Below are positions 3 to 56,484 of a stretch of DNA of 64,000 nucleotides, in pieces. The first letter of the stretch is position 1. Each line of letters starts with the position of its first letter. Below the pieces are notes generated by a model. The model did no database searches. It was not told the origin of the DNA and worked only from the letters and a program-made list of their open reading frames with translations. This DNA comes from Cymbomonas tetramitiformis (Eukaryota > Chlorophyta > Pyramimonadophyceae > Pyramimonadales > Pyramimonadaceae), in assembly GCA_001247695.2 (NCBI GenBank), contig LGRX02025952.1, positions 1 to 64,000 on the forward strand, given 5' to 3'. A program made the translations under genes and the position numbers.

Positions 3-632
3 CCAGAAGAGTGGGAGAGGAAGGCCGTCGCTGACGACATCCCAGGCACTCACAACGCCTTGTTGAAGATTCGGGAAGTTGCTGAGGAGGTGGAGAGCGA
101 CATTGACACGGAGGCGGCTCAGAGGCGCTCTCAAGACCGTCCTCCCCGTGCTGTTTCCTTCGCTAACCCACCACCTCGCACCCCCTTCTACAGGCGTACC
201 CCCTCTTCGAGCCGTCCAGCTCTTGCCATGCTGGAGAACGGGCCTGCCACCACCGTCGCCGCGGCAGTGACTCCTTTGCCACCACCACCTGGCCTCTCCC
301 GCCCTGATGCTCCGAAAGTCCGCCGGTGCTTCGCCTGCGGCTCTGCGGAGCACATCGTCCGTAACTGTACGGACGAGACTAAGCTCAAGGAGTGGAGGGC
401 CAATGCACCCGCTCGACTGGCGAACTCCCCTGGGTTTGTAGCCGCCGTCGTTTGGGCCATCGAGCAGCAGGAGGACATCTCCTCGGTGGATGGCGTCCCA
501 GAAGAGTTCTCCGAGGAGGTCTTGGCTCTTGCTACCTGTGAGGACGAGCAAAGCTACCAGACCCTGGCGGCCCTTGCGGGCATCGAGCTTGTGGAGGGTG
601 ACGGCCTTCCCCCGGTGGAGAGCGATGAATGA
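3..632 (+). CDS. Element 1 gag, C-terminal part (open at window edge)
   Basis: This frame is open from the first complete codon at position 3, so the N-terminus lies outside the window; the ORF is not a gene starting at 60. It ends at UGA 630-632. A single CCHC zinc knuckle with spacing CX2CX4HX4C (CFACGSAEHIVRNC, about 327-368) identifies it as the nucleocapsid part of a retrotransposon Gag, which packages element RNA in cytoplasmic particles. A proline- and alanine-rich stretch precedes the knuckle and an acidic tail follows it. The downstream pol frame (633-8243) is the same frame, separated only by this UGA, so Gag and Gag-Pol are probably made from one RNA by stop-codon readthrough. The knuckle is directly visible; readthrough is inferred. 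Confidence 0.85.
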   Translation, partial: PEEWERKAVADDIPGTHNALLKIREVAEEVESDIDTEAAQRRSQDRPPRAVSFANPPPRTPFYRRTPSSSRPALAMLENGPATTVAAAVTPLPPPPGLSRPDAPKVRRCFACGSAEHIVRNCTDETKLKEWRANAPARLANSPGFVAAVVWAIEQQEDISSVDGVPEEFSEEVLALATCEDEQSYQTLAALAGIELVEGDGLPPVESDE

Positions 633-647
633 CTGGCCGGCGGCCAG
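630..647 (+). promoter_or_regulatory. In-frame UGA with adjacent hairpin at the gag/pol junction
   Basis: The only stop between gag and pol is UGA at 630-632. It is followed immediately by a perfect 6-bp stem, CTGGCC (633-638) and GGCCAG (642-647), with a GGC loop. Codons after it stay open to 8243. A leaky stop plus a nearby RNA structure is the known arrangement in readthrough-type gag-pol elements. Here the hairpin starts directly after the stop instead of after a spacer, so its role is uncertain. Confidence 0.5.
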
Positions 648-3600
648 CCCCAGACCCTGCCCTTCGAGGAAGTGAGGTCTTGCCCTGATGATCAGACCCT
701 CTCCGCCCTGGAGAAGCGGTCAGAACCAGTGGAACCCCGACGCGCCCGAGGACGCAGCGACCCTTGGGGCCAACGTCCCCATCCCAAGAGCGTGGCCTTC
801 ACCTCTGGGACCCGCTTGCGACGCACCTACCGCTCAGCTGGTGCCCCATCGCCGCCGAGGGATGACTTGTCCAGCCACCCTCTTGCAGGAAGCACCCCCT
901 TCGATGAGCCGTCGCTACCTCTTGATGACGGCCCTGCTTATACACAAGCGAGGATCGAGGGTCTGAGGGGACGGCGAGTTCCCCGGCACAGACCCCCCAT
1001 TATGGGCAACAACCGCGGAGAGCCCCGCGACCTTCGCCCCCGACCGCGTGTTGTCCTGCCGCTGTCCATCTATCAGTCCAACCTCGCAGACCCACGGAAA
1101 AGGCTAACTGCGTGGCACTGGAAGAGAGATCTGTACTCCCTCCCCCTCGAAGTCGCCATGCAGAAGGTCCGCAGAGCTCTGTGCAAGTCCCCAGAGGCTG
1201 CCAAGGACCTGGTGGATAAGATGTCGGAGCGCGTCCGCAGCCGCGTACACTCTGGGAGTCGATCGCCAAAGGAGCGCGTGAACCGCGCCAACCAGCTGGC
1301 AGAGAGGATACGCATTGCCCGCGAACCTCAAGATCGCAAGGAGGGCCATCAGCGCATAGCATTGTGGCACCTCCTTTCACACGACGGTCGCCAGCAAGTC
1401 CCCGAATCCTCTAACACCACCTCCCACGACCTCTACGCGGCTTGGAGAGAGCTGTCGCCTGCCGAGCAGCAAAAGGCAATCGCCACTTCGAGTCCAGACT
1501 CTTCCCCAGGTAGCAGGCTGTGGGAAAAGGAGGGCGCACGAAGAGCAGCAGCGAGGTCTTCGACATCCCTCTGCACCCTGGACACTGAAGTGGGCACGAT
1601 ACCTGGGACAGCGGGAGATGTGGGTTTACCTGGCGCCTGGTGCAGTCTGCACGCAGTACACCAGTACAAGATGAGGAAGCTGGGTCCCAGCCCCTTGGGA
1701 GCATCCCCTCCATCATCCTCGCTGGCCGAGCCCACAACAGAGACTACATCTTCGCACCATGATAACGCGCCGGCCACTCCGGGAGGAAACCCCGAAGGTT
1801 CATCCTACTGCTCAGAGGCGGAGGAGACCTCCGCACCCAGTTCGCTTTGCTTCACCCAGCAGATGACCACCGTCAGAACGCATGAAGCGGATGAAGCGCC
1901 ACCCTGTCTCGACAGCCACCCCATCGCTGAAGACCCCGAGGTGATGGAAGAGGAGTCCTCGGTCAATTCGCTCTGCTTCACCCAGCAGATGGCAGCAGCT
2001 GGGACCCCTCAGACGAGAACTGACCACCAGAGCTCCCACCAGCTCGCCCACAACTCCCCTGCTGGCAGCCCTCAGCATGACGAGGATCCTCTCACCCATG
2101 GCGGTCTCACCAATAGTGTCGCTACCCATGTGAGCCCCACAACAAGCGGCACTACCCACGTGAGCCCCACAGTAAGCGGCACTACCCATGTTAGCCCTAC
2201 CACCAGTGGCACTACACATGTGAGCCCTACTACCAGTGACACCACCCATGTGAGCCCTACCACCAGCGACACCACTCATGTCAGCCCCACCTCGAGCGAA
2301 TGCACCTCAGCGGGCACCCTGCTGACGGCGAGTGCAGACAACCTCGTCAGTCATCCGACTGAAGATGTTGATTTGCTGGATGAGGAGTTCTACGCCGCGT
2401 GTAGGCAAACGTTGGAGGAATGCCGCGAGGCCTCGGACAACCTCCTCCCCAACCTCAAGTGCAAAAGCATACGCACAGATGGGGGAGTTCAGTGGAAGAC
2501 CGACATCGAGGGTACCCTCGCAGCGGCACATGATGAAGAAGGACCGCTACTGCTGGTATTCTACGCAACCCTCAGAGGGCACACGGTCAAGGTGCTGATT
2601 GACTCGGGGGCCTCTGACAACTTCATCTCGGAGCAGAGCGCTAAGCGATGTGGCCTCACAACACGAGCCGGCTCCGAGATGCGAGTCACCCTGGCGGATG
2701 GATCTGTGAAGATCACTGGCGCCACCGCGTACGCCAAGTTTAACACGCACACCACCACGGGCACCTATACGGAGAACGCCCTTGCCCTCCGGATCCTACC
2801 ACTGGGCATACAGGTGGATGTTATCCTCGGCGGAAGGTGGCTGCGCAGTCACTCTCCTGTCACTCTGGGCTATGAAGGGAATGGCTCCGTCTCCTTCCTC
2901 AGGAAGTCCCGCAGTGGCAAGATTGGGGATCGCGTCACCATCACAGGCTGTTCTCCTGGGAAAGCATCTGGGGACAGGTCTCCGAAGGGCACGGCCTGCG
3001 CGGGATTGGTGGATGAGGTGTTCCTAACCCCTGCCCAGCTGAAGAAGTACCTGGTGTACGCGGAGACGCAGACGCTACGCGGCAATGACGACCCGGAGAT
3101 ACAGCCCGCCTGGCTCATGGTGGCCGAGAAGTCCCCCGACGATACTGCTTCTGCCTTTGCAGCCACGGCTATCGACTCTGAGAACGCCGAACCCGCTGCG
3201 GATACTGAAGATGCAGAAGTAAGCCCTGAGTGGACCCTCAAGTTTCAGGACTTCTGGGGTGAGGAGTACAAGAAGGAGATGACGACTGCCCTACCGAACA
3301 TCGATGGACTCAGACATGACCCCCAAGATGAAGCCAACATTAACCTGGACCCTGAGCTGAGCAAGAAGGGACCTCCCTGCCAGCGCATCTACAAGAAGTC
3401 CGCAGAGGAACTCCGCCAACTTCGAGAACGCGTGGAGACTCTGATGTCCAAGGGCTACATCCGACCCTCTTCCAGCCCTTATGCAGCTCCCTGTTTGATG
3501 GTCCCTAAACCTGGGAACCCCAAGGAGCTGCGACTGGTGATCGATTACCGGCTCCTCAACCGCCAGACAGTTAAGGACAAGTATCCTCTCCCGGACATCC

Positions 3601-6600
3601 AGATGATGTTCGACGAGATGCAGGGTGCGAAGTTCTTCTCTTCGTTCGACGCGGTGGATGGCTTCTGGCAAGTACCGATGGCACCAGGAGATGTCGAGAA
3701 GACCGCCTTCACCACCCAGATGGGGTCATATGAGTGGTTGGTCATGCCGCAGGGGCTGCAGAATTCACCATCTCAGTACCAGCGACGGATGCAGCGGGCC
3801 TTGGGCCATCTCCCATTTGTTCGGATCTTCATCGATGATGTGGTCGTCTTCAGCAATACCGCTGCAGAGCACTACGAGCACGTCAAACAACTGCTCCTGA
3901 CATGCAGGGAGAAGGGCGTCTTCCTCAAGAGGTCCAAGTGCCAGCTGTTGAAGAAATCCTTGCGGTTCCTTGGCCACTGTATCTCCGCAGATGGCTGCAG
4001 ACCCCAACACGACAAGGTGGCTGCAGTGAGGGACTGGCCCGAGCTGGAGACGGTTACCCACGTCAGGCAGTTCTTGGGCCTAGCGGGGTATTACCGCAGG
4101 TTCATCCACTGCTTCTCCGAGATCGCTCAGCCCCTCACCCGGTTGACCAAGTCGGACGTACCCTGGGAGTGGGGTCCCATGCAGCAGTGGGCCTTCGAGG
4201 AGCTGAAGAAGGCCCTCACATCAGCGCCAGTGCTCGCCTTGCCCAACATTAAGGGTGCCGCAGACGGCACAGCACCTTTCGTGGTGCAGACGGATGCTAG
4301 CGGCATCGCTCTTGGGGGAGTACTGATGCAAGACAATGGAGATGGTCTTGGGCTGCGCGTGATAGCATACGAGAGCCGCCAGTTCTCAGCCGCCGAGCAG
4401 AATTATCACACCGGCGAGCGTGAGCTAGGTGCTCTACACCACTGTACCACCGTCACCTGGCGGCATTACCTCATCTTCACCAACTTCCGCATCCAGGGTG
4501 ATCACCGCCCCCTTGAATGGCTGATGGAACCTGGCAGAGAGCTTAGCCGCAGACAGGCACGCTGGTACATGGATCTGGTGGAGGTGGGAGTCCCGAGAAT
4601 GGAGTACATCAAGGGAGCGCTGCTGCTGGTACCAGACGCCCTGTCCAGAAGACCCGACTTCAAAGACAAGGACGTTCGCGAGGGGTTGAAGGAGGCAGGA
4701 GTGATCGACCCCACCTCAGACCTGCCGAAAGACCCTCTGGCAACGCTGGAGTCTGAATGCTTCTCCAGCTCACCACCCGCAGCTCATCCCCACTGGGCCC
4801 AGACGGTTGACTGTTGGCTCTCAGCAGTGGAAACCCTCTCCGTGGCGGAACAGGCCATGGACATGGGGGAGACCATCGCTCTCGTTAATCCGAAGCTCTA
4901 TAAGGGAATGAAGGAGGATCACCTCGACTTCGACATGCCTGACTGGCCTGAAGCTGATAGCGCGAAGCCGACAGAAGCTCCACACCAACCCCCTGACAGA
5001 GCTCCACCTCAGATAAGGATAACGAGGAGCATGTCACGCGCTGGAAAAGCCTCTACGACCCCAGCGCCTCCACAGTTGGCGTCACCGAAGACGCGAACGC
5101 CTACATCACGAGCTGACGCATCGGAGGCGCCCGCTGAGAAGGTGCGAGTGAGCTCACCACCCCCGCAGCAGGCGCCCCAGCAGTCAGCTCCATCCCCGGT
5201 CCTTCACCCGCAAAAACGGCAGACTCCCCCCGAAGACTCACAGAATTGGCGTGTCCGAGCAGAGTACTCCTCGAAGTACGCCGAGAAGTTTGGACCCTTC
5301 GATGTGGACGCCTGTTGTGACTTTGGCGGCCGCAACAGACAGGCGGATAGATTCTGGACAGACTGCCTTTCAGAGAAATGGAGGGGCCTTCGGGTTTGGT
5401 GTAACCCTCCATATAACTCCAAGCACATTACGGTGGAGGCGATTTTGAACAAGTATATCGCAGAATGGAAGGCAGACCCAGAAAACACCTCAGCAGTCTT
5501 CGTTCTACCAGATCACCAGTCCAAGCTCCCCGCGTGGCGCAAACTTTTCAGAAAGGCTAATATGCAGATCGTGGAGGTCATCCCTACTCACGATGATAAG
5601 GGCGAGCCCAATCAGTTCTTCGAGAACCCAGATGGGAAGGCCTTCGACCTTCGTTGGCCTGTTCTGATAGTACACGCCCCTCCCGCCAAACCACAGCCAG
5701 CACGCGTGAGGCACCCGCGAACAGCCCCCGCTGTGATAAGGACAGGTGAGGCAGCAGCCTTCAGAGACGCAACCTCCCAGCAGTCGGACTCAAAGTTCCT
5801 GCGTGCGTTGAAAGCGGAGTACACCCGAGAGGGGACACTTCGTTCGCTGCGGGAGAAAGTGAAGGCGGCACCACACCAATGCCTACAAGACTTCAGGCTG
5901 GTGGGTGAAGTGGTTTGGAGGACCGCAGCAGGGAGATATCAGTTGGTGCTGGGGGAGGACTCTCCACTTCGAGAAGTAGTGATTCGCCATGCTCATGAGT
6001 CATTGTCCTCAGGCCATACTGGGCGAGACAAGACTCTGGAGAGGGTGCTGCGACGCTTCTATTGGCGTGGTGCCGCGGAAGATGTGGGCACCTGGGTTGC
6101 ATCCTGCGCAGTGTGCCAATCAGTGAGGCCGCGGGGAACTTACCCGGATGGGTTGCTAAACCCTCACAGCATCCCGAACAGGCCATGGCAGGATGTCGCG
6201 GTGGACTTCGTCACCGGCCTGCCGGTATCAGAGAGGGGCAATGATGCTTTCGTGGCCTTCACCTGCAAGCTGACGAAGATGGTCCACGTTGTGCCGATGA
6301 ACTTCGGCGACAGCTCCGCAGCTGTGGTGGCCAGAATCTACTTTGACTCGGTGTGGCGCTTACATGGCGCGCCTATGAAGATTGTCTCTGATCGTGACCC
6401 GCGGTTTCAAGATGCTTTCTGGCAGGAACTCATGAGACTGATGGGTGTGAAAGTGGCTCGTACCACGCCGTACAACCCTCGGTCTGACGGCCAGGCGGAA
6501 CACAGCAACAGGGTTATTGAGGACATGCTCAGGTCCTTTGTTGACGCCAATGTGGAGGACTGGGATCTGTTCACCACTAACGTGGAGTTCGCGATCAATG

Positions 6601-8243
6601 ACTCCAGGAGTGAATCTACTGGCTTCACGCCGTTTGAACTGGTGTTCGGGTTCTCGCCGCTGTCGCAGTTGGATCTTTTCCTGGAGGCCGCGCAGTCCAC
6701 CGCCGGACGACGAACTGGGGGAGTAGGCACCGCACACGAAGTGGCTGTGAAATTTTCGTCGCAGCTGCGGGACGCCAGGCAGCGGTTGGAGCTGGCTCAA
6801 CAGCGACAGCGCGAACAGTTTGATCGCAGACACGGGCAGCGGGAGTATGCTGTTGGAGATCTGGTCTGGATAGAGGCGAAACACCTTACGGAGAAGGTGA
6901 TGGATCGCTCCATCTGTAGGAAACTGACCAAGCGCTGGCATGGACCAGTTCCTGTGACCGAACGCTTCTTCAGCGATATACAGATGACCATGCCCGAGGC
7001 CGACAGAGGAGCTCCAGTAGCCTACCGCCTACGCCTCCCTCCTCACTGGCGGATTCACGACGTGTTCGCTCAACATCGCCTCAAACCGTACACCAGCGGT
7101 CAAGATGCTTTTGCCGCACGCGATCACCTAGCAGTACCTGAAGAGGTGGTAGTGGACGGTCAGAAGGAAGCACACGTTGAGCGTATCCTTGCACGTCGAG
7201 TGCGGTCTGTTCGAGGAAAGGAGGTGGAAGAGTGGAAGGTTCGCTGGACTGGCTACTCCAAAGCTCACGACCAATGGAGGACGCGTGACAAACTTGAACG
7301 CGGAAGTCCACTTCAACAACTTCGTGAATTCGAGCAAGCGAGACTGCACATGGAAGCGCAAGTCCGCGACGAAGCCACTCGGCGACGCGAGCAGCGTGGC
7401 CGCCACTCCGCTCAAGCCGGAATGACACTGGCCCACCTCATCACCAATCCCTGCGATGAACTGGACCAGCTCGAACAGATGGAAGATGATATCCCCCTGC
7501 CGTGGGAACGCCAAGAGCGCGTGGAAGATGGGTCGTTGGCACTGGTGACAGAGCTGCTGGCAATACAGGCAAAAACAACCCGCACGCCCAGGATTCTCGT
7601 ACTTTTCAGCGGTACTGGCTCAGTAGAGAGGGAATTCCTAAATTGCTTCCCCTCCGCCTCAGTGGTGACCCTCGACTCCGGGCATATCTGGCAACCCACT
7701 CATGTGTGTGACATCCTGCAATGGGACTACAAGCAATACCCGCCTGGATTCTTCGATGTTATTTGGGCAAGTCCCCCCTGCAGGCAGTACAGTCAAGCGC
7801 GCACCACTGGTGGACCCCCTGACCTTCCCCAGGCTGACAAAATCGTACGACGAGCATTGCAGATCATTGACTACCTAGAGCCAAAACATTGGTTCATGGA
7901 AAACCCCAGAGGTCGCTTCCCTAACGCGCTACGGCTTCGCCCTATGATGCGCCAGCTTCCCCCACCGCTGGTGTGTACCTACTGCATGTATGGTACGCAG
8001 TACATGAAACCCACCTGCATATGGACGAACTCAGCACCACCCTCGCCCCTGCTACGCTGTACTACTTCAACACCGTGTGCGTGCAGATGGGCAACCGGTG
8101 CTCACCCAGAGACTGCTCAGCTTGGACCTCACCCGCAGCAGACTGGAGCAGGTCGATCTGCGAGTGTATACCCCGTACCAGCACTCCTGCTACGACAACT
8201 TTTCCGACATTTACGCCTCCGCGACACTGAAGACCCGCTTTAG
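633..8243 (+). CDS. Element 1 Pol: protease, RT, RNase H, Dam-like MTase, integrase, chromodomain, C5 MTase
   Basis: Residues are counted from the codon after UGA 630-632 (about 2536 residues). A long low-complexity N-terminal region leads to a retropepsin (LIDSGAS, Asp657). The RT has VIDYRLLN, a FSSFDAVDGFWQ-type motif A and catalytic FIDD at 1068-1069. RNase H follows (VVQTDASG). A Dam-like domain (about 1538-1700) has DVDACCD and NPPY (1591-1594). The integrase has an HHCC finger and a DDE triad at D1858, D1920 and E1956, an exact DX35E spacing. A chromodomain lies near 2178-2230 (WKVRWTGY). A C5-cytosine methyltransferase domain (about 2320-2470) has LFSGTGSVE, ASPPC (Cys2383) and MENPRG (Glu2423). 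No internal stop or frameshift is visible, so the element may be young. The order RT-RH-IN-chromodomain is that of Ty3/gypsy chromoviruses; the two methyltransferases are extras. Confidence 0.88.
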   Translation: MAGGQPQTLPFEEVRSCPDDQTLSALEKRSEPVEPRRARGRSDPWGQRPHPKSVAFTSGTRLRRTYRSAGAPSPPRDDLSSHPLAGSTPFDEPSLPLDDGPAYTQARIEGLRGRRVPRHRPPIMGNNRGEPRDLRPRPRVVLPLSIYQSNLADPRKRLTAWHWKRDLYSLPLEVAMQKVRRALCKSPEAAKDLVDKMSERVRSRVHSGSRSPKERVNRANQLAERIRIAREPQDRKEGHQRIALWHLLSHDGRQQVPESSNTTSHDLYAAWRELSPAEQQKAIATSSPDSSPGSRLWEKEGARRAAARSSTSLCTLDTEVGTIPGTAGDVGLPGAWCSLHAVHQYKMRKLGPSPLGASPPSSSLAEPTTETTSSHHDNAPATPGGNPEGSSYCSEAEETSAPSSLCFTQQMTTVRTHEADEAPPCLDSHPIAEDPEVMEEESSVNSLCFTQQMAAAGTPQTRTDHQSSHQLAHNSPAGSPQHDEDPLTHGGLTNSVATHVSPTTSGTTHVSPTVSGTTHVSPTTSGTTHVSPTTSDTTHVSPTTSDTTHVSPTSSECTSAGTLLTASADNLVSHPTEDVDLLDEEFYAACRQTLEECREASDNLLPNLKCKSIRTDGGVQWKTDIEGTLAAAHDEEGPLLLVFYATLRGHTVKVLIDSGASDNFISEQSAKRCGLTTRAGSEMRVTLADGSVKITGATAYAKFNTHTTTGTYTENALALRILPLGIQVDVILGGRWLRSHSPVTLGYEGNGSVSFLRKSRSGKIGDRVTITGCSPGKASGDRSPKGTACAGLVDEVFLTPAQLKKYLVYAETQTLRGNDDPEIQPAWLMVAEKSPDDTASAFAATAIDSENAEPAADTEDAEVSPEWTLKFQDFWGEEYKKEMTTALPNIDGLRHDPQDEANINLDPELSKKGPPCQRIYKKSAEELRQLRERVETLMSKGYIRPSSSPYAAPCLMVPKPGNPKELRLVIDYRLLNRQTVKDKYPLPDIQMMFDEMQGAKFFSSFDAVDGFWQVPMAPGDVEKTAFTTQMGSYEWLVMPQGLQNSPSQYQRRMQRALGHLPFVRIFIDDVVVFSNTAAEHYEHVKQLLLTCREKGVFLKRSKCQLLKKSLRFLGHCISADGCRPQHDKVAAVRDWPELETVTHVRQFLGLAGYYRRFIHCFSEIAQPLTRLTKSDVPWEWGPMQQWAFEELKKALTSAPVLALPNIKGAADGTAPFVVQTDASGIALGGVLMQDNGDGLGLRVIAYESRQFSAAEQNYHTGERELGALHHCTTVTWRHYLIFTNFRIQGDHRPLEWLMEPGRELSRRQARWYMDLVEVGVPRMEYIKGALLLVPDALSRRPDFKDKDVREGLKEAGVIDPTSDLPKDPLATLESECFSSSPPAAHPHWAQTVDCWLSAVETLSVAEQAMDMGETIALVNPKLYKGMKEDHLDFDMPDWPEADSAKPTEAPHQPPDRAPPQIRITRSMSRAGKASTTPAPPQLASPKTRTPTSRADASEAPAEKVRVSSPPPQQAPQQSAPSPVLHPQKRQTPPEDSQNWRVRAEYSSKYAEKFGPFDVDACCDFGGRNRQADRFWTDCLSEKWRGLRVWCNPPYNSKHITVEAILNKYIAEWKADPENTSAVFVLPDHQSKLPAWRKLFRKANMQIVEVIPTHDDKGEPNQFFENPDGKAFDLRWPVLIVHAPPAKPQPARVRHPRTAPAVIRTGEAAAFRDATSQQSDSKFLRALKAEYTREGTLRSLREKVKAAPHQCLQDFRLVGEVVWRTAAGRYQLVLGEDSPLREVVIRHAHESLSSGHTGRDKTLERVLRRFYWRGAAEDVGTWVASCAVCQSVRPRGTYPDGLLNPHSIPNRPWQDVAVDFVTGLPVSERGNDAFVAFTCKLTKMVHVVPMNFGDSSAAVVARIYFDSVWRLHGAPMKIVSDRDPRFQDAFWQELMRLMGVKVARTTPYNPRSDGQAEHSNRVIEDMLRSFVDANVEDWDLFTTNVEFAINDSRSESTGFTPFELVFGFSPLSQLDLFLEAAQSTAGRRTGGVGTAHEVAVKFSSQLRDARQRLELAQQRQREQFDRRHGQREYAVGDLVWIEAKHLTEKVMDRSICRKLTKRWHGPVPVTERFFSDIQMTMPEADRGAPVAYRLRLPPHWRIHDVFAQHRLKPYTSGQDAFAARDHLAVPEEVVVDGQKEAHVERILARRVRSVRGKEVEEWKVRWTGYSKAHDQWRTRDKLERGSPLQQLREFEQARLHMEAQVRDEATRRREQRGRHSAQAGMTLAHLITNPCDELDQLEQMEDDIPLPWERQERVEDGSLALVTELLAIQAKTTRTPRILVLFSGTGSVEREFLNCFPSASVVTLDSGHIWQPTHVCDILQWDYKQYPPGFFDVIWASPPCRQYSQARTTGGPPDLPQADKIVRRALQIIDYLEPKHWFMENPRGRFPNALRLRPMMRQLPPPLVCTYCMYGTQYMKPTCIWTNSAPPSPLLRCTTSTPCACRWATGAHPETAQLGPHPQQTGAGRSASVYPVPALLLRQLFRHLRLRDTEDPL
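2120..2300 (+). repeat. 30-bp coding minisatellite in element 1 Pol
   Basis: Six imperfect tandem copies of a 30-bp unit encode a Thr/Ser/Pro decapeptide (THVSPTTSGT and variants). They lie in the low-complexity linker between Gag and protease. Copies stay in frame, so number changes are tolerated. A few hundred bases upstream and downstream the linker also repeats a short SLCFTQQM segment (about 1843-1866 and 1966-1989). Confidence 0.85.
5245..5725 (+). other. Dam-like N6-adenine methyltransferase domain in element 1 Pol
   Basis: The translated segment has the layout of the phage-type Dam family (the family I know as PF05869): a DVDACCD motif, an R-N-R-Q-A-D-R-F-W-T turn, W-R-G-L-R-V-W-C leading into the catalytic NPPY motif, then a strand with VFVLP and a final strand ending in LIVHAPP. 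NPPY is the signature of amino-methyltransferases that act on adenine or cytosine N4. It sits between RNase H and integrase. The same domain recurs in elements 2 and 3. DIRS-type retroelements are known to carry such a domain; its place in a Ty3/gypsy Pol is unusual. Confidence 0.75.
7580..8040 (+). other. C5-cytosine methyltransferase domain in element 1 Pol
   Basis: Motif I is LFSGTGSVEREF, motif IV is ASPPCRQYS with the catalytic Cys, and motif VI is MENPRGRF. The segment ends with a C-x-YG...KPTCIWTN stretch like the short phage-type cytosine methylases. The tail after IWTN (to 8243) is not recognisable as a target-recognition domain. The domain follows the chromodomain at the very C-terminus. 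It would transfer a methyl group from S-adenosylmethionine to C5 of cytosine if active; activity is inferred. Confidence 0.8.
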
Positions 8244-8431
8244 ATTCCAAGTGGCACCCTTCTTCTTGAAAGTGGTGCCCTGGTAGCGGCAGGCAAACTA
8301 TGCTCGAAGAGGAACCAGAGAACCTAAGAACTGGAAACAGCAAGGAACCAGAGAACCTAAGAACTGGAACTTAGATGGGTACCTTAGCGGAGTGATCCCA
8401 GGAGGTAGACCACTCCTAAGGGGGGGAGAGT

Positions 8432-9122
8432 TGTGCCCGGAGGCACAGCGTGAGCCGATATGCCTATGCGTCCGTATGTGTGTCATCGGGGGTAATCTGG
8501 GATTGGCACGATGACAGTGAATTGGGCTTGAAATCACGATGAGAATGAATACCAGATGTCCGGGGTATGACAGTATGACACTATGACACTATGACAGTAT
8601 GACAGTATGACACTATAGTAGTATGACAGTACTGTGGGGGTGTCATCGTGGAACTCAGTCAGACCCTCGAAGAATGGTCAGATTCGCATCGGGGTTGAAA
8701 AGACAATGAAATCGAATATCAGATATTAAGGTTATGACAGTATGACAGTATGACGCTATGACAGTATGACAGTATGACAGTACAGTAGTATGACAGTACT
8801 GTGGGGCAGTCATCGTGTCAGCCTGTTGGCATAACATCTGAATCGAGAATGACGAATCGGAATTAGAAATGAGATCGGATCGGGAACTGAACGTTGAGCC
8901 GAAGTGTGACATCGGCTCTCGAGTGGTTGACCCTGCAACCTGAGTGACGAGTGAATAAGTAGAGCACTTGAGAAGTGTTTAGCCTTCAGAACTCGGAACC
9001 GAATTATCGTTTGTACCTCAATCTGGCCCTGATCCAGTATATTATAAAAATCCGAATTGTGTACCTTTGCACGTTCAATCAAAAACATATCTCCGAGCAT
9101 CTGTCGTCGTGCCCCTGGCACA
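8432..9122 (+). repeat. 3' LTR of element 1
   Basis: The LTR begins TGTGCC and ends GGCACA, a perfect 6-bp inverted terminus, 691 bp long. It is preceded by a polypurine tract (about 8418-8430, G-run then AGAG). A second, 633-bp copy ends element 2 (26927-27559), and the two align along most of their length. Two clusters of a 10-bp TATGACAGTA-type repeat (about 8571-8635 and 8734-8800) account for much of the length difference. The LTR lies within the integrase of element 3, so element 1 inserted there; TGTGG at 9123-9127 is the likely target duplication, but the other side is outside the window. Confidence 0.88.
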
Positions 9123-11271
9123 TGTGGTCGAAGTAGATTCGAGCGATAACCTCAGCGGAGCTGTCCTGGAAGTTCAACGGGATGATGTGAACCATTTTGC
9201 TGAGCTTACATGTGAAAGTAGCAAAGGCATCGTGATTCCGCGCCGTGACTGGCAGTCCAGTGACAAAGTCCACACTGACCACTTGCCATAGTCGCGTAGG
9301 AATAGTGTGTGGGTTCAGCAATCCATCCGGGTAGGAATTTCTCGGTCGCACCGCTTGACAGATAGTGCAAGATGAAACCCAGCGTCCCACATCTTCTGCT
9401 GCCCCTTTCCACCAGAAGCGTCGCAGTACTCGTTCCAGAGTTTTGTCCCTGCCCGCGTGTCCAGCTGAAACAGATGCATGCGCCTCTTGCAGTACTACCT
9501 CACGGAGGGGTGAATCTTCTCCCAGTACCAACTGATAGCGCCCAGCGCTCACCCTCCACAACACATCTCCCACTACGCAGAAGTCACGAGTGCGTTGATG
9601 CGGAGCTTCTTGGATTTCCTTCCTTAAAGTCTGGAGGGGACCAGGTCGCCCATATTCCGCTTGCAGCGCTTTGAGGAACTGGCCTCCTGATATCTGCTGA
9701 TGCAGGTCTCGAACGCTGGCCGCTTCTCCAGTACGCACGATAGGAGGGGGGGAACTCGTTTTCCTTTCCCGCTTGACACGCTGTCGAGCTGGCGGGGCGT
9801 ACACCACTAGCAGGGGCCAAGGAAGATCCAGAAGGGCTCCATCCGGGGCGGCGAACATCTGCACAGGTTCTCCTTGAGCGTCATGGGTAGGAATAATGTA
9901 CTCCACTCTCATTCCCGCAGATCTGAACAACTGCCGCCACTGTGGCATGCGAGACTGAAAGTCAGGAAGGACGAAGAGAGCTGAAGTATTCTCAGGGTCC
10001 AGACGCCATTCTTCCACATATTTCCTCAGTACGGCCTCGATGGTCAAATGGTTGGAGGAGAAGGGAGGATTGCACCAGACGTTCAACCCTCGCCAGTTTT
10101 CCTTCAAGCAGTCCGTCCAGTAGCGGTTGACCTGACGATTCTTTCCTCCCAAGTCGCAACAGGCGTCCACCTCGAAAGGTCCATATTCTTGACTCAAGAA
10201 GTCGAACATGTCCGCACGGAACTTCCAGTCCTGTCGATCGCTGGGCTCCAGGAGTCTGGTTGAGGCCTCGCTGCACTTCGGCGTTGCTGAGTAATCAACA
10301 GGGGTCTTCCTGGGAGAAGGGGGCGAGGACGCTGTCAGTTTGCCAGAGCGCGTCTGAACTGCCAGGGTTGCTTTCTCGTACCCAGTTTCGGCCAGCTGCA
10401 GGGTATGTAAGGCGTCCATCCAGAGTTGAGGGGAGTCCATCCAGGTGAGAGTCCCACTGTACGCGAGGACTGGTTCAGGATCTTTGGTCTTGGCGCTGTT
10501 GGACTTGCGCTCCTTCAACTTGTTGGGATCTACCACTCCCAGGGGCGCGCGTCCTTGGCGAGACTCTTTACCAGCTGCAGGTCGAAACTTGCTGGCAGTG
10601 TCTGCGGCCGAGGGAGGTCGCTGCGGTTTCCCAGTAACCGGATGCACAAAGCCAGCTTCTACCAGTCCTTCTCTCGCGGAAATTTCCTTGTAGTCGGGTC
10701 GCCTGGACAGAGCGTCTGGAACCCAGAGTAGCGCCCCAGGGATGTATTCCATCTCGGGTACCCCTACCTCCACTAGATCCATGTACCATCGGGCTTGGCG
10801 TCGGCTGAGAGGTTGTCCGGGTGCCATTAACCAGACTAGGGGCTTGTGGTCACCCTGCAATTGGAACTCAGTCCAGATGAGGTAGTGTCGCCAAGTTTGC
10901 GTAGTGCAGTGATGGAGAGCGCAGAGTTCTCTTTCGCCAGCATGGTAGTTCTGCTCGGCTCCATTAAACTGTCTGCTCTCAAAGGCGATAGGTTGCAATC
11001 CATTTCCTACGTCTTGCATCAGTACTCCCCCTAGTGCCACTCCACTGGCGTCAGTTTGTACCACGAAAGGATGCCGTCCTTCGGCCGCCGCTTTCATATC
11101 GGGTAGCGCCAGAGTGGGTGAAGAACATAGCGCCTTCTTAATCTCCTCGAAGGCCCAACGCTGCATGGGTCCCCATAGCCAAGCGACATCCCCTTTGGTG
11201 AGCTGAGTCAAAGGTTGTGCTACTTCAGAGAAGCCCAGCATGTACCGCCGGTAGTACCCAGCCAACCCCAA
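9123..11271 (-). pseudogene. Element 3 Pol, second half: RNase H, Dam-like MTase, integrase (cut)
   Basis: This continues element 3 Pol after the one-base frameshift near 11270. It begins with GLAGYYRRYMLGFSEVAQP, the connection after RT. RNase H (VVQTDASGVALGG) follows. The Dam-like domain (about 10230-9770) has EVDACCD and NPPF, with Phe in place of the Tyr of element 1. The integrase shows the HHCC finger and VDFVTGLP with its first catalytic Asp, then is cut at 9122 by the element 1 LTR; the track continues as LTR-encoded residues to 9079. The second and third catalytic residues are missing from the window. The DNA cannot encode an active enzyme as it stands. Confidence 0.82.
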
Positions 11272-14200
11272 AATTGGCGCACATGCGTGGCGTTTTCCAG
11301 AGCGGGCCAGTCCCTGATGGCGGCCAGCTTGTCATGTTGAGGTTGACTTCCTTCCCGTGAGATCACGTGCCCCAGAAAGCGTATCTGGGTCTGCAATAGT
11401 TGACACTTAGACTCTTTGAGGTAGATACCCTGGTTCTCACATACTTCGAGAAATTGCTGGAGATGGGAAAGATGCTCCTCCAAGGTGTTGCTGAAGAGGA
11501 TACAATCGTCCAGGAATATTCTTACAAAAGGAAGATGTCCCAGAGCGCGCTGCATGCGTCTCTGATAGCATGAAGGACTGTTGGTCAACCCCATGGGCAT
11601 CACCAACCACTCATACGAGCCATAGGGAGAAGTGAACGCAGTCTTTTCCACATCCTCAGACGCCATAGCCATCTGCCAGAACCCATCGACTGCATCGAAG
11701 GAGGAGAAGTACTTGGCCCCATGCATGGAGTCGAACAACTGCTGAATGTCGGGAAGTGGATATTTGTCCTTGACGGTCAGGCTGTTGATGGCTCGGAAGT
11801 CGCAGACCATTCTGAGTACTTCAGGTTTCCCAGGCTTGGGAACCATCAGCACTGGTGCAGCGAACGGACTTGAGGAAGGTCTGATGTAGCCCTTGCTCAG
11901 GAGTTCATCCAGGCGTTCTCGCAGTTGAGTCAGCTCCACCATGGACATCTTGTAGGGCCTCTTAGCGGGCGCGATGCCATTCCATCCCTCTTGCAGTCTC
12001 ACGTGGGCCACTTCATCTTTTCGCAGGGCGTCAAAGTTGGGCAGCGCTTCGCGAATTACTCGAGGTGAAAAGGACTCGATCAGCTTCTGAAACTTCTTTC
12101 TCCACTCGGGGGAGATTGAAGGGTCCTCCAAATTCTCGCTGGTGGCCACCGCTGATAACATCGAAGTCCCTACCAGAGGTGTCGCATAGGCCACTAAGAT
12201 GTCGTGGGGTGTCGCGGCACTGTCCATTCCCGCATATCTGCGCCGATAGGCTTTGATCTCCTTGGTCGCTTGAGCCGCTGATAACATTACCATCGGTTCC
12301 AGAGCCATCGCGGTTCTCTCGCCTTTGCGTGTAGAGCTACGCCCTGGCGAACATCCCCGTATCCGCACGGATTTGCCATGCTGGCGAAACTTGACTGATC
12401 CCCACCCATCATAGTCCAGCGTGACCGGCGAGAGGTGTCTCAACCACCTTCCTCCGAGTACAATGTCCACCTTGATGCCCAGAGGAAGTACTCGCATCTT
12501 GATGACCTCGGAGTAAGTCCCCTCTGAAGTCTCGGCGGTCAGCTTGCCGTAAGCGACTTGCGCAGAGGTCTGCACTGACCCATCCGCGAGGGTAACGTTC
12601 AGCGGCATCCCATTAGCGCGAACTGTGAGGTTCAATCTCTTGACGCACTCACTGGAGATGAATTCATCCGAGGCACCCGAATCCACCAGCACGCGCACTC
12701 GCTGTCCCTTCAGCAAGGCCCAGAACACCAATAGCAGCGTTCCCTCTTTGTCCCGAATCGCAGTCAGCTGACTGTCCTGGTTCCACATTACTTGACCATC
12801 GCGTCGCAGATGTGCACAGATGGCTGCTCGCACTGGGTGATGCAAAGGTACGCGCTGCTTAGACCGGATAGGTCTTGTGCGCGGTGGTGCAGGCTGCGAA
12901 CGAGGATCCGGACCAAAGTACCATCCACCTTCCAGGTCGCGATCTGCTTGTAGCTGCCGCTCCTTAGCGCGTCGCTCTTGTCCCTGAGCGCGTCGTCTGG
13001 CGCGGCTCTGCGTGCGGCTTTCCAGAGGGTAAGAGCGAAGAGGTTGGATGGAAATCTTCTCCTCCTCTTCCTCCCCAGCGCTATCTTCTGGTTCGGACTT
13101 TTGAGTGAACGAGGGGGTTTCTTCTTCCCGCGGTGCCGCCTGGGCGTTGGTGACGTTCGCTGGTGCTGCCACTGCTTCATTACCTTCCAGGATCGGCCGC
13201 AGACGATGGCGTTGCTGTTTCTGAATGGTCAGTAGCAGTTCCAGGTGGGTTTCCTCCTGGATGGTTTTCAGGGGAGTCGGCTCCACTCCTTCTGTCACCG
13301 TTGTCAGCACACTTGGATTGTTCTCCGATCTGGCGGCGGCCAGCTGTCGCTCCATCAACTGCTGCGTGAAGTTGAGCGACCGCTGGGAGTCCTCGAGGTC
13401 GGAAATGTCCCCAGAAGTTGCGGGCTGAGAACTGGATGGAGATAAGGTCAAATCCAGAGTTGTCGCTGGATTCGCATCTGATGGTTCCGCTGAGTCCAGG
13501 GAGAGTGAATCACCACTTGCTGTTGAGGGTAGAGCCAGGTGAGCAGCCTCCTCCGCAGCTTCCCTTTCTCGCTGGTTCCATTGGTGCACCCTGTATAGAC
13601 TGCACCATGCGTCTGGAATTCCTACATCTCCACCAGAACCTGGGATAGTACCGCACTCGGTCTCCAGAGATAGCTGAACTGCTCCTTCGGTTATCGTTAG
13701 GTCAGGGGTGACCTTCCCATGCCATCTGTACCAGCGGCGGCGATATCTGCGCCACCCTTCTGGTACCCATGCATCTCTCCATTTCTCATTCTCCTTTACC
13801 AGCGCTGCCGCGGCCATGTGCTCCGGGTGCGTCATCTCTCTCCAAGCACGCGTGCGATCCGCCAGTGACTCTGCTCGAAGTCCTGGTGGTTCATCTCCCA
13901 ACCTGGTGGCCCGAGGGTGCGTACCCTTGCCACCCTTGCCCCCCTTGCCGCCCTTGCCATTAGGGTGCTTCTCCCTCGGCTTGGTTGTGTCAGCCGAGCC
14001 CCGCCCCCCCTCACGGACTTCCCCCGTCATGGAGGCAGCTCGGGGGCGGGATGAAGAGCCAGGGAGCTGGGAATGGTGGGCAGAGCCCTGGGTGTACCAT
14101 ACCTTCCCGATGGCCTCAATGAACTTCTGAAGACCACCGGGGAAGCCAGAGGAGGTCAAGCGGTTGTTCTCCTCGTAGGTGCGGATGACCTCGAAGTACA

Positions 14201-15374
14201 GAGGGATGTTGAAGAGGTGCTCGGCCGTGTCCTGGGAGGCCCGTAAGATGTCAATGAGGACCTCCTGCTCCTGCTGTCCAGAGAAGGCGGGGTGGAGCTG
14301 CCTGTGGTTGCCGATGAGGGTGGCGAAGGTGTTCAGCTTCACGGCGGGGTCCTCGGACTCAGAGATTCGGAGGGCCTTGGCCTTGGTGAGGTTGGAGTTG
14401 TCCGTGGAGGGGGGGTAGGTGATCAGGCGGCAGTGCATGTGCAGCAGAAGCAGTCTGCCGTCCACCTGAGCCCGGGGGGAGTCCTTCACAATTTGTGACA
14501 ACACAATTTGTGTGTTGCCACAAGTGGCCGCAAGTAGAAGTTGAGCTAGAAGGCCATTGGAGATACCGTCGTAGGGCTCGTCCTTCAGTCGGCGTTGAAG
14601 GTTAAGTAGTGCTGGGGCGTGGCCAGGTCGGGTGGCGGTGAGCACACGGGTCAGGGCGTCACAGAACTTTTTGAACACAATGTCGCCGCCCGCGGTGAGG
14701 AAGTTCAATTGGAGTTCACGTTGTTGTTGGCGCTCGTGAATATCCGTGAGGGCATAGTAGGCGGTCTTCAACTGCTTCAGGAGCGGAGTGACGTCAGGGG
14801 TGGTGGAGCGGGTGTTGAAGGCGCTGGTGTTGTCGTCCATGATGTGCTTGATCTTGGTTGGAGGAAGTTCTTGCCCGTCTCGATGTTGCAATGGCGTCAC
14901 CTCTGGAATAGTTTCCAATTCCTTGGTGGTGTCGAACATCTTGTCCGAAGTAATTACGACTGAAGATGGCGTCGAAGATGAAGTAGTTCTACTCGCAACA
15001 GTGCGAGCCAGTGAGGTGGCGTTAACGCATTCGTCGCGGACTTTGATTAAGTCGTTGAAGATGGTCTCGTTGAGTTGGTTGACGTCGTTGAGTTCTTCCT
15101 TCGTGACGTAATTCTCGTGGATCTCGTCGGATTGGGCAGATGAACGCTGAAATGCTACTACAAGCGAGGTGACGGTGGTGGAGAGCTCAGCCATGTTGGC
15201 GGTGACGGCATGAAGGTCTTGAAGAAGGGCGTTGATCGTGATGGAGATTTCTTCGTTTGTTGGAGATGGCGGAAGAGGTTGACGTGAAGTAAATAAACGT
15301 CGTTGAGCATGTTGTTGACGCTCTTGTGTTGGTGGTTGGGATCCCGGAGTTGTAGTTGGCGTGAACGAGGACAT
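11220..15374 (-). CDS. Element 3 Gag-Pol (gag through RT), single reading frame
   Basis: The 1384-residue frame runs from ATG 15374 without a stop between gag and pol, unlike element 1. The N-terminus has a helical, coiled-coil-like region (about residues 40-130). A capsid-like middle follows, then a basic KGGKGGKGGKG tract near 13921-13960 where a zinc knuckle would be expected; no CCHC is present. Further on are the TECGTIPGSGGDVG and AWCSL motifs shared with element 1, a retropepsin (LVDSGAS, about 12670) and an RT with VCDFRAIN and FLDD (about 11500). The frame breaks at about 11265-11275, where one base is missing relative to the expected QFLGLAGYYR reading, inside a C/A homopolymer run. 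This could be a mutation or an assembly error. Confidence 0.82.
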   Translation of the reverse strand: MSSFTPTTTPGSQPPTQERQQHAQRRLFTSRQPLPPSPTNEEISITINALLQDLHAVTANMAELSTTVTSLVVAFQRSSAQSDEIHENYVTKEELNDVNQLNETIFNDLIKVRDECVNATSLARTVASRTTSSSTPSSVVITSDKMFDTTKELETIPEVTPLQHRDGQELPPTKIKHIMDDNTSAFNTRSTTPDVTPLLKQLKTAYYALTDIHERQQQRELQLNFLTAGGDIVFKKFCDALTRVLTATRPGHAPALLNLQRRLKDEPYDGISNGLLAQLLLAATCGNTQIVLSQIVKDSPRAQVDGRLLLLHMHCRLITYPPSTDNSNLTKAKALRISESEDPAVKLNTFATLIGNHRQLHPAFSGQQEQEVLIDILRASQDTAEHLFNIPLYFEVIRTYEENNRLTSSGFPGGLQKFIEAIGKVWYTQGSAHHSQLPGSSSRPRAASMTGEVREGGRGSADTTKPREKHPNGKGGKGGKGGKGTHPRATRLGDEPPGLRAESLADRTRAWREMTHPEHMAAAALVKENEKWRDAWVPEGWRRYRRRWYRWHGKVTPDLTITEGAVQLSLETECGTIPGSGGDVGIPDAWCSLYRVHQWNQREREAAEEAAHLALPSTASGDSLSLDSAEPSDANPATTLDLTLSPSSSQPATSGDISDLEDSQRSLNFTQQLMERQLAAARSENNPSVLTTVTEGVEPTPLKTIQEETHLELLLTIQKQQRHRLRPILEGNEAVAAPANVTNAQAAPREEETPSFTQKSEPEDSAGEEEEEKISIQPLRSYPLESRTQSRARRRAQGQERRAKERQLQADRDLEGGWYFGPDPRSQPAPPRTRPIRSKQRVPLHHPVRAAICAHLRRDGQVMWNQDSQLTAIRDKEGTLLLVFWALLKGQRVRVLVDSGASDEFISSECVKRLNLTVRANGMPLNVTLADGSVQTSAQVAYGKLTAETSEGTYSEVIKMRVLPLGIKVDIVLGGRWLRHLSPVTLDYDGWGSVKFRQHGKSVRIRGCSPGRSSTRKGERTAMALEPMVMLSAAQATKEIKAYRRRYAGMDSAATPHDILVAYATPLVGTSMLSAVATSENLEDPSISPEWRKKFQKLIESFSPRVIREALPNFDALRKDEVAHVRLQEGWNGIAPAKRPYKMSMVELTQLRERLDELLSKGYIRPSSSPFAAPVLMVPKPGKPEVLRMVCDFRAINSLTVKDKYPLPDIQQLFDSMHGAKYFSSFDAVDGFWQMAMASEDVEKTAFTSPYGSYEWLVMPMGLTNSPSCYQRRMQRALGHLPFVRIFLDDCILFSNTLEEHLSHLQQFLEVCENQGIYLKESKCQLLQTQIRFLGHVISREGSQPQHDKLAAIRDWPALENATHVRQFWGWLGTTGGTCWASLK

Positions 15375-16116
15375 GGTAGACCTTCCGGACCGTTGGTGGC
15401 GGTGAAGGTGACGATGTTGCGCAAGTCGTTCTCGTAGGGGTTGAGATGTAGATTTTCTCTAAGATTTGTTAATTTTTAAAAAATTGGCCAGCGCTTCCGC
15501 CGTAAATGCTCGTAATGAAGCCGAAATCCAAGGCGTCCCCTAAATTCCGGCAGAGCGTGTGATAATTAACGGACGCGATTTAACATTGAAGTTGAAATAA
15601 GAGCCGAGAGGGCAATCGTAAGTTAATTCCCAATCATAAAAGGTTTTGGCTAGTTAAAATTCACGCCGGCCCGACCTGCGGAGGGTTAGTGCAAGCGGAA
15701 AAGGCAATTTTCAAGTAATTTTTGTTACTGCCAGTTCGATGCGCTTTTGACGGCTAATTTGAAATTTGTTGTGTCATCAGAGATTGCAGTGGTGCGTCGT
15801 GGTCAAACATAACCTAATAGATAGTTTGAAACACATATAGGGTAGAATATTCTATATATCCGTGTTTTAATACTATCGCTGTACGCAAAAATATGAGGCT
15901 CAAACGGTGATAATATGTCTGTAAAAGATATAACATATGAGAGTCTGAGAGTCTAAGTAGCTTATGCTACGTGCGCTGTGTAAGTCTGTACGAGTACGGC
16001 TACGGTGATGCTCGAGTACTCTAACACGTGGCTCGCAGTCTCTGTCGCTATGACTTGCGGTGTCGAGCCGAATAATAATGCAGTCATCTGTCACATGCAT
16101 CGAGGAATGTCATACA
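15375..16116 (-). repeat. Probable 5' LTR and leader of element 3
   Basis: There is no coding signal in this AT-richer stretch. It lies upstream of element 3 gag and ends where element 4's protease frame is broken. Read on the minus strand it would start TGTAT at 16116, and a possible end ...CTACA lies near 15448, giving about 669 bp, similar to the other LTRs here. The other LTR is outside the window, so the ends are a guess. Confidence 0.45.
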
Positions 16117-26700: not shown

Positions 26701-26738
26701 GACATCTACGCCTCCGCAAGACTGAAGACCCGCTTTAG
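23710..26738 (+). pseudogene. Element 2 Pol relic: Dam-like MTase, integrase, chromodomain, C5 MTase
   Basis: This is a close relative of the 3' half of element 1 Pol, starting just before the Dam-like domain; protease, RT and RNase H are missing. The Dam-like domain keeps DVDACCD and NPPY (about 23897). The integrase frame is broken by TAG at 24869-24871 in place of the Lys codon of element 1. The chromodomain is intact. A 4-base insertion near 25905 shifts frame, a TAG near 25963 replaces a Gln codon, and a TAG at 26496-26498 replaces the Tyr codon near the end of the C5 methyltransferase. That domain still has LFSGTGSVE, ASPPC and MENPRG. The copy is dead, but both methyltransferase cores are well preserved. 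Confidence 0.85.
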
Positions 26739-26926
26739 ATGCCAAGCGGCACCCTTCTTTATGACAGTGGTGCCCTGGTAGCGGTAGGCAATCTATGATC
26801 GAAGAGGAACCAGAGAACCTAAGAACTGGAGCTAAGAAGGAACCAGAAAACCTAAGAACTGGAACTTAGATAGGCACCTTAGCGGAGTGATCCCAGGAGG
26901 TAGACCACTCCTAAGGGGGGGAGAGT

Positions 26927-56236: not shown

Positions 56237-56484
56237 CTATATGCTGGACTTCGGGTTTAGGCTTAGTTATTATGGGCTCTGACTAGCCCCTAGCCTGACC
56301 CTGCTTCCGTATCGTGTCCGTGACATCCTAGCACTGTACTGTACAGTAGTACAGTACAGTAGTACAGTCTTGTCTTCACTGTCTGGGTTTCCGAGAGCAT
56401 AAAGCCTCGGCCAGACACTGTTTATGTGATTATCAGTTTGATGCTCAGCGAGCTTAGCCGGACAGCGGATCTGTCTTTCTCGCA

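Follow-up and report, generated by a model that had tools for sequence, protein, structure and literature searches.

As a rule, retrotransposons are on the receiving end of DNA methylation. Some also carry methyltransferases. KnitGypsy-Dnmt3 of Klebsormidium nitens, a gypsy element with LTRs, encodes a cytosine methyltransferase within Pol, under purifying selection (de Mendoza et al. 2018, PMC5890265), and SymbioDIRS-Dnmt3 and SymbioLINE-Dnmt are likewise retrotransposons with cytosine methyltransferases, CG methylation having been shown in yeast for the SymbioDIRS-Dnmt3 type (PMC5890265). DIRS1-like tyrosine-recombinase retrotransposons have a Dam-type domain after RNase H (PMC3266345). Cytosine-methyltransferase gypsy elements and Dam-bearing DIRS elements are thus already in print; the original prediction for the locus treated here had named retrotransposons with captured cytosine methyltransferases in some algae and DIRS elements with a Dam-like domain. 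In the prasinophyte green alga Cymbomonas tetramitiformis itself, high-copy chromodomain Ty3/gypsy pol sequences have been termed Chlamyvir-related (PMC10675990), and three scaffolds with over 10,000x coverage have homology to chromodomain, RNase H, and cytosine DNA methyltransferase (Burns et al. 2015, PMC5741210). Here, we analyze a 64,000-nucleotide window of this genome (LGRX02025952.1, positions 1 to 64,000), in which a retrotransposon, element 1, encodes predicted methyltransferases of both types in its Pol frame at 633-8243(+).

Results

The Pol frame of element 1 comprises, in order, protease, RT, RNase H, a predicted Dam-type methyltransferase, integrase, chromodomain, and a predicted C5-cytosine methyltransferase:

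3..629, + strand: gag, 3' part, with CCHC zinc knuckle CFACGSAEHIVRNC (frame shared with pol)
630..632, + strand: TGA at the gag/pol junction, in frame with both (sequence of element 1 and sister copy L127)
633..8243, + strand: uninterrupted Pol frame of 2,536 aa
2550..2867, + strand: aspartyl protease (profile matches)
3420..4109, + strand: reverse transcriptase (profile matches)
4155..4616, + strand: RNase H (profile matches)
5235..5609, + strand: predicted Dam-type (PF05869) methyltransferase domain, NPPY at 5403-5414 (Pfam, phrog_111, AF2 model and VIA comparison)
5940..6812, + strand: integrase, H2C2 and core (profile matches)
7155..7364, + strand: chromodomain (Pfam Chromo, 28.6 bits vs a cut-off of 25.1)
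7587..8204, + strand: predicted C5-cytosine methyltransferase domain, SPPC at 7770-7781 and ENP at 7899-7907 (phrog_757, PF00145, Foldseek)
8418..8431, + strand: polypurine tract AAGGGGGGGAGAGT (sequence)
8432..9122, + strand: 3' LTR, TGTGCC...GGCACA (match to the 5' and 3' LTRs of a complete copy in contig C21424)

The contig begins inside gag, which runs past its start, so that only the 3' LTR lies within the window; sister copy L127 has a longer open gag frame. The TGA is present in both family-A copies whose junction was read (2/2, L127 included), and is probably passed by translational readthrough. Judged from its sequence, element 1 is a Ty3/gypsy-type LTR retrotransposon, with the order protease-RT-RNase H-integrase and an H2C2/DDE integrase 3' of RT (H2C2 62 bits; rve under its Pfam cut-off). 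The chromodomain, C-terminal to integrase, agrees with the earlier label of chromovirus. Identity as a DIRS or tyrosine-recombinase retrotransposon was ruled out, since profile searches of the Pol frame matched H2C2 and rve and gave no Phage_integrase match.

Profiles, motifs, and modeled folds were considered for each methyltransferase. The first domain exceeds the Pfam cut-off for PF05869 (31.1 vs 28.1 bits), also matches the phage profile phrog_111, and combines an NPPY/F motif with a class I SAM-methyltransferase fold in its AF2 model, which fits adenine-N6 methyltransferases best; a search of PDB sequences with the Dam profile gave no believable match. We predict a Dam-type adenine methyltransferase. 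GATC is not depleted in the element frame (29 seen, 27.6 expected). The second domain falls 0.2 bits short of the PF00145 gathering cut-off (21.8 vs 22.0), yet phrog_757, a phage profile, matches its whole length (2.9e-16), while NCBIfam dcm reaches only 0.018. It contains the catalytic motifs SPPC (PPC, motif IV) and ENP (motif VI type). Its model adopts a C5-methyltransferase fold, retrieving DNMT3B (Foldseek E 2e-7, probability 1.00) as well as DNMT1, M.HaeIII, and M.HhaI, at a TM of about 0.5 and with residues 193-206 badly modeled. Sequence and model together point to a phage-type C5-cytosine methyltransferase.

Element 1 belongs to a family with at least 150 near-identical copies in the genome: all 150 scored matches to its C5 domain have 99-100% identity, and 32 of them lie within frames of at least 2,500 aa. 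A complete sister copy in contig C21424 spans 13,805 bp, with two 693-bp LTRs that differ at 5 of 693 sites, TG...CA ends, and a TGTCT target-site duplication on both sides. Just after its 5' LTR stands TTTGGTATCAGC, a candidate tRNA primer-binding site, which we take to resemble that for initiator-Met tRNA. The window holds further elements, one of which is interrupted by element 1 inside its integrase:

9123..15458, - strand: second element, gag-PR-RT / RNase H-Dam-integrase (profile matches)
9865..10239, - strand: second element, Dam domain with NPPF (Pfam 38.7 bits, E 1.1e-9)
23713..27559, + strand: third copy, 5'-truncated, three stop codons (profile matches, sequence)
23723-24094, + strand: third copy, Dam
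24431-25303, + strand: third copy, INT
25646-25855, + strand: third copy, chromo
26082-26699, + strand: third copy, C5
26927-27559, + strand: third copy, LTR

Sequence searches collected 72 related proteins. Both methyltransferase domains occur in 47 of 63 tree rows, in Pol in every one, and most rows of a 46-row clade keep both. The order Dam-INT-C5 recurs among these relatives, as the original prediction invited one to check, beside INT-C5-Dam and C5-RT-INT-Dam, two orders in which the Dam calls are weak. PPC and ENP are retained in 57/57 full element C5 domains, whose length, looked at for a separate target-recognition domain, is 187-220 aa across the 57 rows; a branch of the tree with full support separates these 57 from 21 viral C5 domains. 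The Dam NPPY/F is altered or missing in 10 of the 46 clade members and in four of five rearranged elements, and one relative (P0019) has a dead C5-like tail with both C5 motifs gone. Separate capture of Dam in the rearranged elements was considered; with five long rows excluded, the AU test did not reject a single gypsy Dam clade (p 0.49). Among 90 viral loci, one phage record paired a C5 domain with a 14-bit Dam match, which we judged to be noise.

In the family of element 1, purifying selection acts on both domains, and more strongly than on the neighboring linkers. In a single pair of copies at moderate dS, element 1 versus the broken copy that shares its window, the value of dN/dS is 0.038 for Dam (dS 1.18) and 0.072 for C5 (dS 0.66), with 0.021 for INT and 0.076-0.089 for linkers. 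Against the C21424 copy, Dam shows 0 nonsynonymous and 4 synonymous changes, and the adjoining RNase H-Dam linker 10 and 7, respectively. Eight further copies (L119-L126) show no nonsynonymous C5 change; they were chosen as best C5 protein matches, and hence are not counted as evidence. The predicted architecture, with Dam between RNase H and integrase and C5 after the chromodomain in one frame, is thus upheld by profile matches, motifs, modeled folds, and selection, which together with the conserved order rule out chance or mis-called domains. Neither outcome that the original prediction named as refuting it was seen, these being a lack of significant methyltransferase profile matches and folds devoid of the SAM-binding Rossmann core.

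Discussion

What might a retroelement do with two such enzymes? That element 1 marks its own DNA or steers silencing, as first suggested, would be a functional reading of its domains. In the specific form that we propose, and to which we give roughly even credence, both predicted enzymes methylate the element's own fresh cDNA before integration. The element protease would cleave Pol, leaving both methyltransferases beside RT and integrase inside the particle, where the finished double-stranded cDNA would be methylated on A (Dam) and C (C5). By analogy with orphan phage methyltransferases, which shield phage DNA, the marked cDNA could then pass as modified self DNA before host nucleases or foreign-DNA sensing, and the chromodomain might direct integration to chromatin already full of such elements, a steering for which one may cite the insertion of element 1 in another element. 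There is a precedent in a Dnmt3 from a retrotransposon, for which de novo CG methylation was shown in yeast and methylation of cDNA was proposed (PMC5890265). Adenine methylation would not be needed everywhere, because NPPY/F is lost or changed in several relatives, and the threat answered by the mark is hypothetical, because elements without methyltransferases transpose too.

The enzymes could instead act after insertion, methylating integrated copies for tuning or silencing (copy-number control), or keeping them active through 6mA. The chromodomain would suit a role at chromatin, and de Mendoza et al. list a gain from slower retrotransposition among the possibilities (PMC5890265). However, among singletons from integrated copies of two families, C-to-T changes are not in excess at CpG (33/1,086 CG sites vs 101/3,316 other C sites; odds ratio 1.00, p 1.0), in a pooled test that takes four of five regions; in the fifth, the RNase H-Dam region of family B, to which one divergent copy contributes 83 singletons, CpG transitions are 11/263 and other C/G 31/964. 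CpG observed/expected also differs little (0.76 in the element frame vs 0.83 in the whole window). Errors are among the singletons of a long-read assembly, and a mark would be masked by repair or by targets other than CG. The missing footprint speaks against lasting CpG methylation, weakens lasting self-silencing by that route, and leaves a transient mark untouched; a transient or non-CpG mark is favored for this reason, and marking after insertion appears unlikely. Native nanopore data of Cymbomonas exist, and were used for the published assembly.

The same missing footprint is equally expected from a C5 enzyme that is inactive on DNA or acts on RNA. The domains would then bind or modify RNA, or be structural parts of Pol, which we consider rather unlikely: their nearest profiles are phage DNA methyltransferases, and the PPC and ENP motifs, intact in every full C5 domain, would be superfluous for a scaffold. 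A use against DNA viruses, as weapons or as shields that benefit the host, has been suggested for retrotransposon methylases generally (Morozov et al. 2019, PMC6338049), and endogenous viral elements are reported to be numerous in Cymbomonas (PMC10675990); yet both enzymes are bound into the Pol of a proliferating element rather than being single host genes, and our analysis found nothing linking them to virus DNA, making this improbable. That the domains are functionless passengers, despite the Dam motif decay in some relatives and the dead tail of P0019, is already disfavored and barely credible given the purifying selection, stronger than on the linkers, and their retention across most of the 46-row clade.

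Returning to methylation of cDNA before integration, one may tentatively, and with rather more doubt than confidence, extend it to a whole LTR lineage with phage-type two-base marking, in which C5 would have been kept since the origin and Dam would accompany it in three or more orders, each new reverse transcript being modified on A and C before integration, as a retroelement counterpart of phage anti-restriction. The successful family described here combines, in one polyprotein, a chromatin reader with enzymes of prokaryotic-virus type that are predicted to deposit the two major DNA marks. If active, they would offer a simple system for asking how a retroelement profits from modifying its own DNA, whether unmodified DNA is sensed in algae, and what share of the host methylome transposons write.

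Our literature search found no published account of one LTR element with both methyltransferases, consistent with the claim that no such Ty3/gypsy element had been described, and PHROGs, Pfam, and NCBIfam contain no family named for a retroelement with two methyltransferases. In KnitGypsy-Dnmt3 the Dnmt3 is of host origin, no Dam accompanies it, and the arrangement of the repeats is DIRS-like (PMC5890265), whereas the C5 domain of element 1 is nearest to phage profiles and is joined by Dam and a chromodomain, with plain LTRs in the C21424 copy. The SymbioDIRS-Dnmt3 and SymbioLINE-Dnmt elements belong to other classes, with Dnmt3 or other eukaryotic-type enzymes, and that part of the paper describes no second, adenine-type enzyme (PMC5890265). 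DIRS1-like elements use a tyrosine recombinase in place of the H2C2/DDE integrase (PMC3266345); examples occur in the same Cymbomonas genome (L001, 3.3 kb, and L114, 9.9 kb), their Dam adjoins gypsy Dam in the tree (support 89), and a profile search found no C5 domain in either. A Ty3/Gypsy element of orchids is reported to have captured a methylation-related enzyme as well, differing in that this is an m6A RNA demethylase domain with an RNA substrate (PMC9289625). Orphan phage methyltransferases, whose profiles phrog_757 and phrog_111 match C5 and Dam, respectively (phage matches 25-36% identity), are free-standing genes, whereas these domains are fused in a eukaryotic retroelement polyprotein. 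Within Cymbomonas, the main text of the Chlamyvir-like chromovirus paper does not contain "methyl" (PMC10675990), and the scaffolds that Burns et al. (2015) described, which very likely represent fragments of these elements, were not joined as one element, nor is an adenine methyltransferase mentioned in the accessible part (PMC5741210). Methyltransferases of each kind were known singly in retrotransposons, as were methyltransferase repeats in Cymbomonas; what appears to be new is the presence of both in one LTR element.

An open Pol frame with two predicted methyltransferases

In element 1, a Ty3/gypsy retrotransposon with a chromodomain, one open Pol frame (633-8243(+), 2,536 codons) encodes two different predicted DNA methyltransferase domains. 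Pfam recovers, in order, an aspartyl protease, RVT_1, RNase H, a Dam-type domain (Dam), H2C2 integrase, rve (under the Pfam cut-off), a Tf2-1 SH3 domain, Chromo and DNA_methylase, the C5-cytosine methyltransferase domain (C5). The original prediction, which placed Dam between RNase H and integrase and C5 behind the chromodomain in a single frame, is borne out by this order.

Pfam scores of key domains in element 1
Dam: PF05869, 31.1 bits, cut-off 28.1
Chromo: 28.6, cut-off 25.1
DNA_methylase: PF00145, 21.8, cut-off 22.0

Matching to these two methyltransferase profiles, proposed with the prediction, thus upheld Dam outright and left C5 marginally short in Pfam; yet phrog_757, a phage DNA methyltransferase profile of PHROGs, spans nearly all of C5 (residues 2310-2510, 2.9e-16). 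The PHROGs profile phrog_111 matches the Dam segment (6.5e-12), and NCBIfam gave sub-threshold matches only. All three catalytic motifs (PPC, ENP and NPPY/F) are intact in element 1.

Boundaries and neighbouring copies

Element 1 has no 5' LTR in the window because the window begins at the start of contig C17070. Its gag (3-629, with a CCHC knuckle) shares the frame of pol, with a TGA between. In family A, to which element 1 belongs, a single in-frame TGA (window 630-632) separates the two; in several copies of family B, another family of such elements, the pol frame is stop-free from the start of the examined stretch.

LTRs and copies
8432-9122: 3' LTR of element 1, preceded by a polypurine tract
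23713-27559 (+): third copy, 5'-truncated, with Dam, integrase, chromodomain, C5, LTR and three stop codons
Contig C21424, LTRs at 23173-23865 and 36285-36977 (693 bp each): complete sister copy, span 13,805 bp

The sister copy is flanked by TGTCT at both ends, and its LTRs differ at 5/693 sites, all transitions. The sequence beyond 9122 belongs to the integrase of a second element, on the minus strand and with its own Dam (9865-10239); therefore, element 1 inserted into a relative. Other repeats also occur in the window. A 111-bp repeat lies at 23599-23709, where the third copy is cut off on its 5' side, and at 56374-56484 and 59425-59535; in translation it recurs in the genome stretch L114, from 3312 onward. 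A frame-broken gypsy-type integrase remnant occupies 52586-53379(+). The frames 45856-51570(+) and 18041-21235(-), one with RVT_1 and the other with a CCHC gag-like end, share an inverted stretch (18589-19548 vs 50579-51529, 98-100%), and a 782-aa frame at 39320-41665(-) carries a hAT transposase dimerisation domain.

Abundance in the genome

With the window C5 as protein query, 150 of 8,342 initial candidates in the assembly (851.7 Mb, 25,745 contigs) were scored; all 150 show 99-100% identity, and 32 of them sit in frames 2,500 aa long or longer. With the C5 of a relative, P0014, the 150 scored places (of 7,969 candidates) all belonged to another family, in which identity to the query was 66-73% and the longest frame reached 2,759 aa; PF05869 likewise matched at 150/150 scored places (of 7,257 candidates). 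Twenty stretches, picked for long frames or varied scores, were examined, and 16 hold Dam, integrase, chromodomain and C5 in this order, some across frame breaks (the exceptions being L106, L110, L113 and L114). In the Cymbomonas genome paper, LTR elements account for 140.6 Mb and a gypsy pol with a chromodomain is described as a relative of the Chlamyvir chromoviruses; "methyl" is absent from its main text (PMC10675990). Three scaffolds with >10,000x coverage, described as carrying chromodomain, RNase H and cytosine DNA methyltransferase (Burns et al. 2015, PMC5741210), are, from that description, probably parts of these elements.

A clade of related elements

Three protein searches (19, 21 and 51 hits) yielded 72 distinct proteins, 14 named Cymbomonas, 1 from this genome and 57 in jgi/ena/lgn/ncbi records. 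The nearest proteins with a species name are those of Cymbomonas tetramitiformis. The RT, RNase H and integrase (INT) tree holds 63 sufficiently complete rows, the window's included (P0003, P0004, P0007, P0015, P0016, P0017, P0024, P0026, P0028 and P0029 were left out). Every row was recovered via Dam or C5, so that the sample covers members with at least one of these domains.

Domain orders among the 63 tree rows
Dam-INT-C5: 42
INT-C5-Dam: 2
C5-RT-INT-Dam: 3
C5 last, no Dam detected: 11
C5 first, without Dam: 1
Dam, no C5 detected: 4

The order of element 1, sought in relatives as the prediction had proposed, is thus found in 42 rows, the window's included, and a fully supported branch separates the 46 rows of the Dam-INT type from all others. 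Among Dam-INT rows without a C5 call, P0005 has a partial C5 match, and P0013 and P0018 stop in or just past integrase. In P0019 the C-terminal ~230 residues align with C5 by eye, both catalytic motifs being lost (NAPK in place of SPPC, FTGF in place of ENP), and this tail is a probable pseudo-enzyme; its Dam retains NPPY. PPC and ENP are present in 57/57 full C5 domains and NPPY/F in 36/46 main-clade Dam domains, and C5 seems the steadier of the two predicted activities.

In the rearranged types, P0067 has integrase, then C5, then Dam, while P0071 and P0072 carry NUDIX and C5 upstream of the protease and a C-terminal Dam. Pfam finds both methyltransferases in these three, Dam slightly under its cut-off (24.9-26.0 vs 28.1); the Dam of P0068 and P0070 scores 24 and 29 bits with a profile built here, that of P0070 also matching phrog_111 (0.0021). 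Only P0070 among the five keeps NPPF, the other four having NPVY, NPVF or NPAF. Additional domains were seen in Pol: NUDIX lies at the N-terminus (P0071 residues 79-174; P0072 66-138, under the Pfam cut-off), a PHD finger sits between Dam and integrase in P0026 (563-607) and, by precomputed Pfam, also in the Pol of P0044 and P0055, and P0070 and P0027 show a weak Tudor match near the C-terminal part.

Origins of the two domains

The C5 tree comprised 57 element and 21 viral domains, the latter thinned from 80 IMG/VR loci (best of 588). Element C5s are split from viral C5s with full support, and those of the Dam-INT type are set apart from the other domains at support 93; in this tree of element and viral C5s alone, a single early capture is the simplest reading. 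At a support of only 89, the gypsy Dam is separated from viral Dam and placed beside the Dam of retroelements with a tyrosine recombinase found in this genome (L001-L006, L114); thus, Dam may have passed between retroelement classes, a reading that AU tests did not discriminate. The Dam of these DIRS-like retroelements, of the L001/L114 type, is the nearest found to gypsy Dam. Both L001 (1240-2013(-), contig C18222) and L114 (4169-6448(+), contig C6651) have Dam directly behind RT/RNase H; in L001 a weak Phage_integrase match accompanies RT and Dam, and L114 has RT and Dam in one frame.

Selection and methylation footprint

Between element 1 and the window's broken copy, dN/dS is 0.038 for Dam, 0.072 for C5, 0.021 for INT and 0.018 for the chromodomain, and 0.076 and 0.089 for the Dam-INT and chromo-C5 linkers. 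When element 1 is compared with the C21424 copy, only synonymous changes are seen in RT (10), RNase H (5) and Dam (4), while the RNase H-Dam linker differs by 10 nonsynonymous changes and 7 synonymous ones. In comparisons with family B, synonymous sites are saturated. From these ratios and counts we therefore conclude that selection maintains both methyltransferase domains, C5 appearing under somewhat looser constraint than integrase. Lasting CpG methylation of the copies should make C-to-T changes commoner at CG. Singletons of families A and B showed no such excess (33/1,086 CG vs 101/3,316 other C; odds ratio 1.00, p 1.0), in a test blurred by assembly errors and selection and in which other target motifs would leave no signal. 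The test thus lends no support to lasting CpG methylation.

Proposed role and known systems

We suggest that the element methylates its own reverse transcripts. What is observed is that the two domains lie next to RT and integrase in Pol, keep their motifs, have the predicted folds of such enzymes, evolve under selection and occur in recent copies. The methyltransferases would be released by the protease, packaged and act on cDNA; modified cDNA might then be protected from host nucleases or foreign-DNA sensing, with the chromodomain possibly contributing to targeting. The original prediction knew of no described Ty3/gypsy element with both enzymes, which agrees with our search: among the papers found in the open-access literature (subscription papers and Repbase being outside its scope), none describes a single LTR element that carries DNA methyltransferases of both adenine and cytosine type. 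Nor did we see there a description of the pair, of its seemingly phage-type C5 or of how broad the clade is. Retrotransposons with captured methyltransferases are already known, and de Mendoza et al. (PMC5890265) make a similar proposal for DIRS-borne Dnmt3 and name Dam-bearing DIRS as possible analogues.
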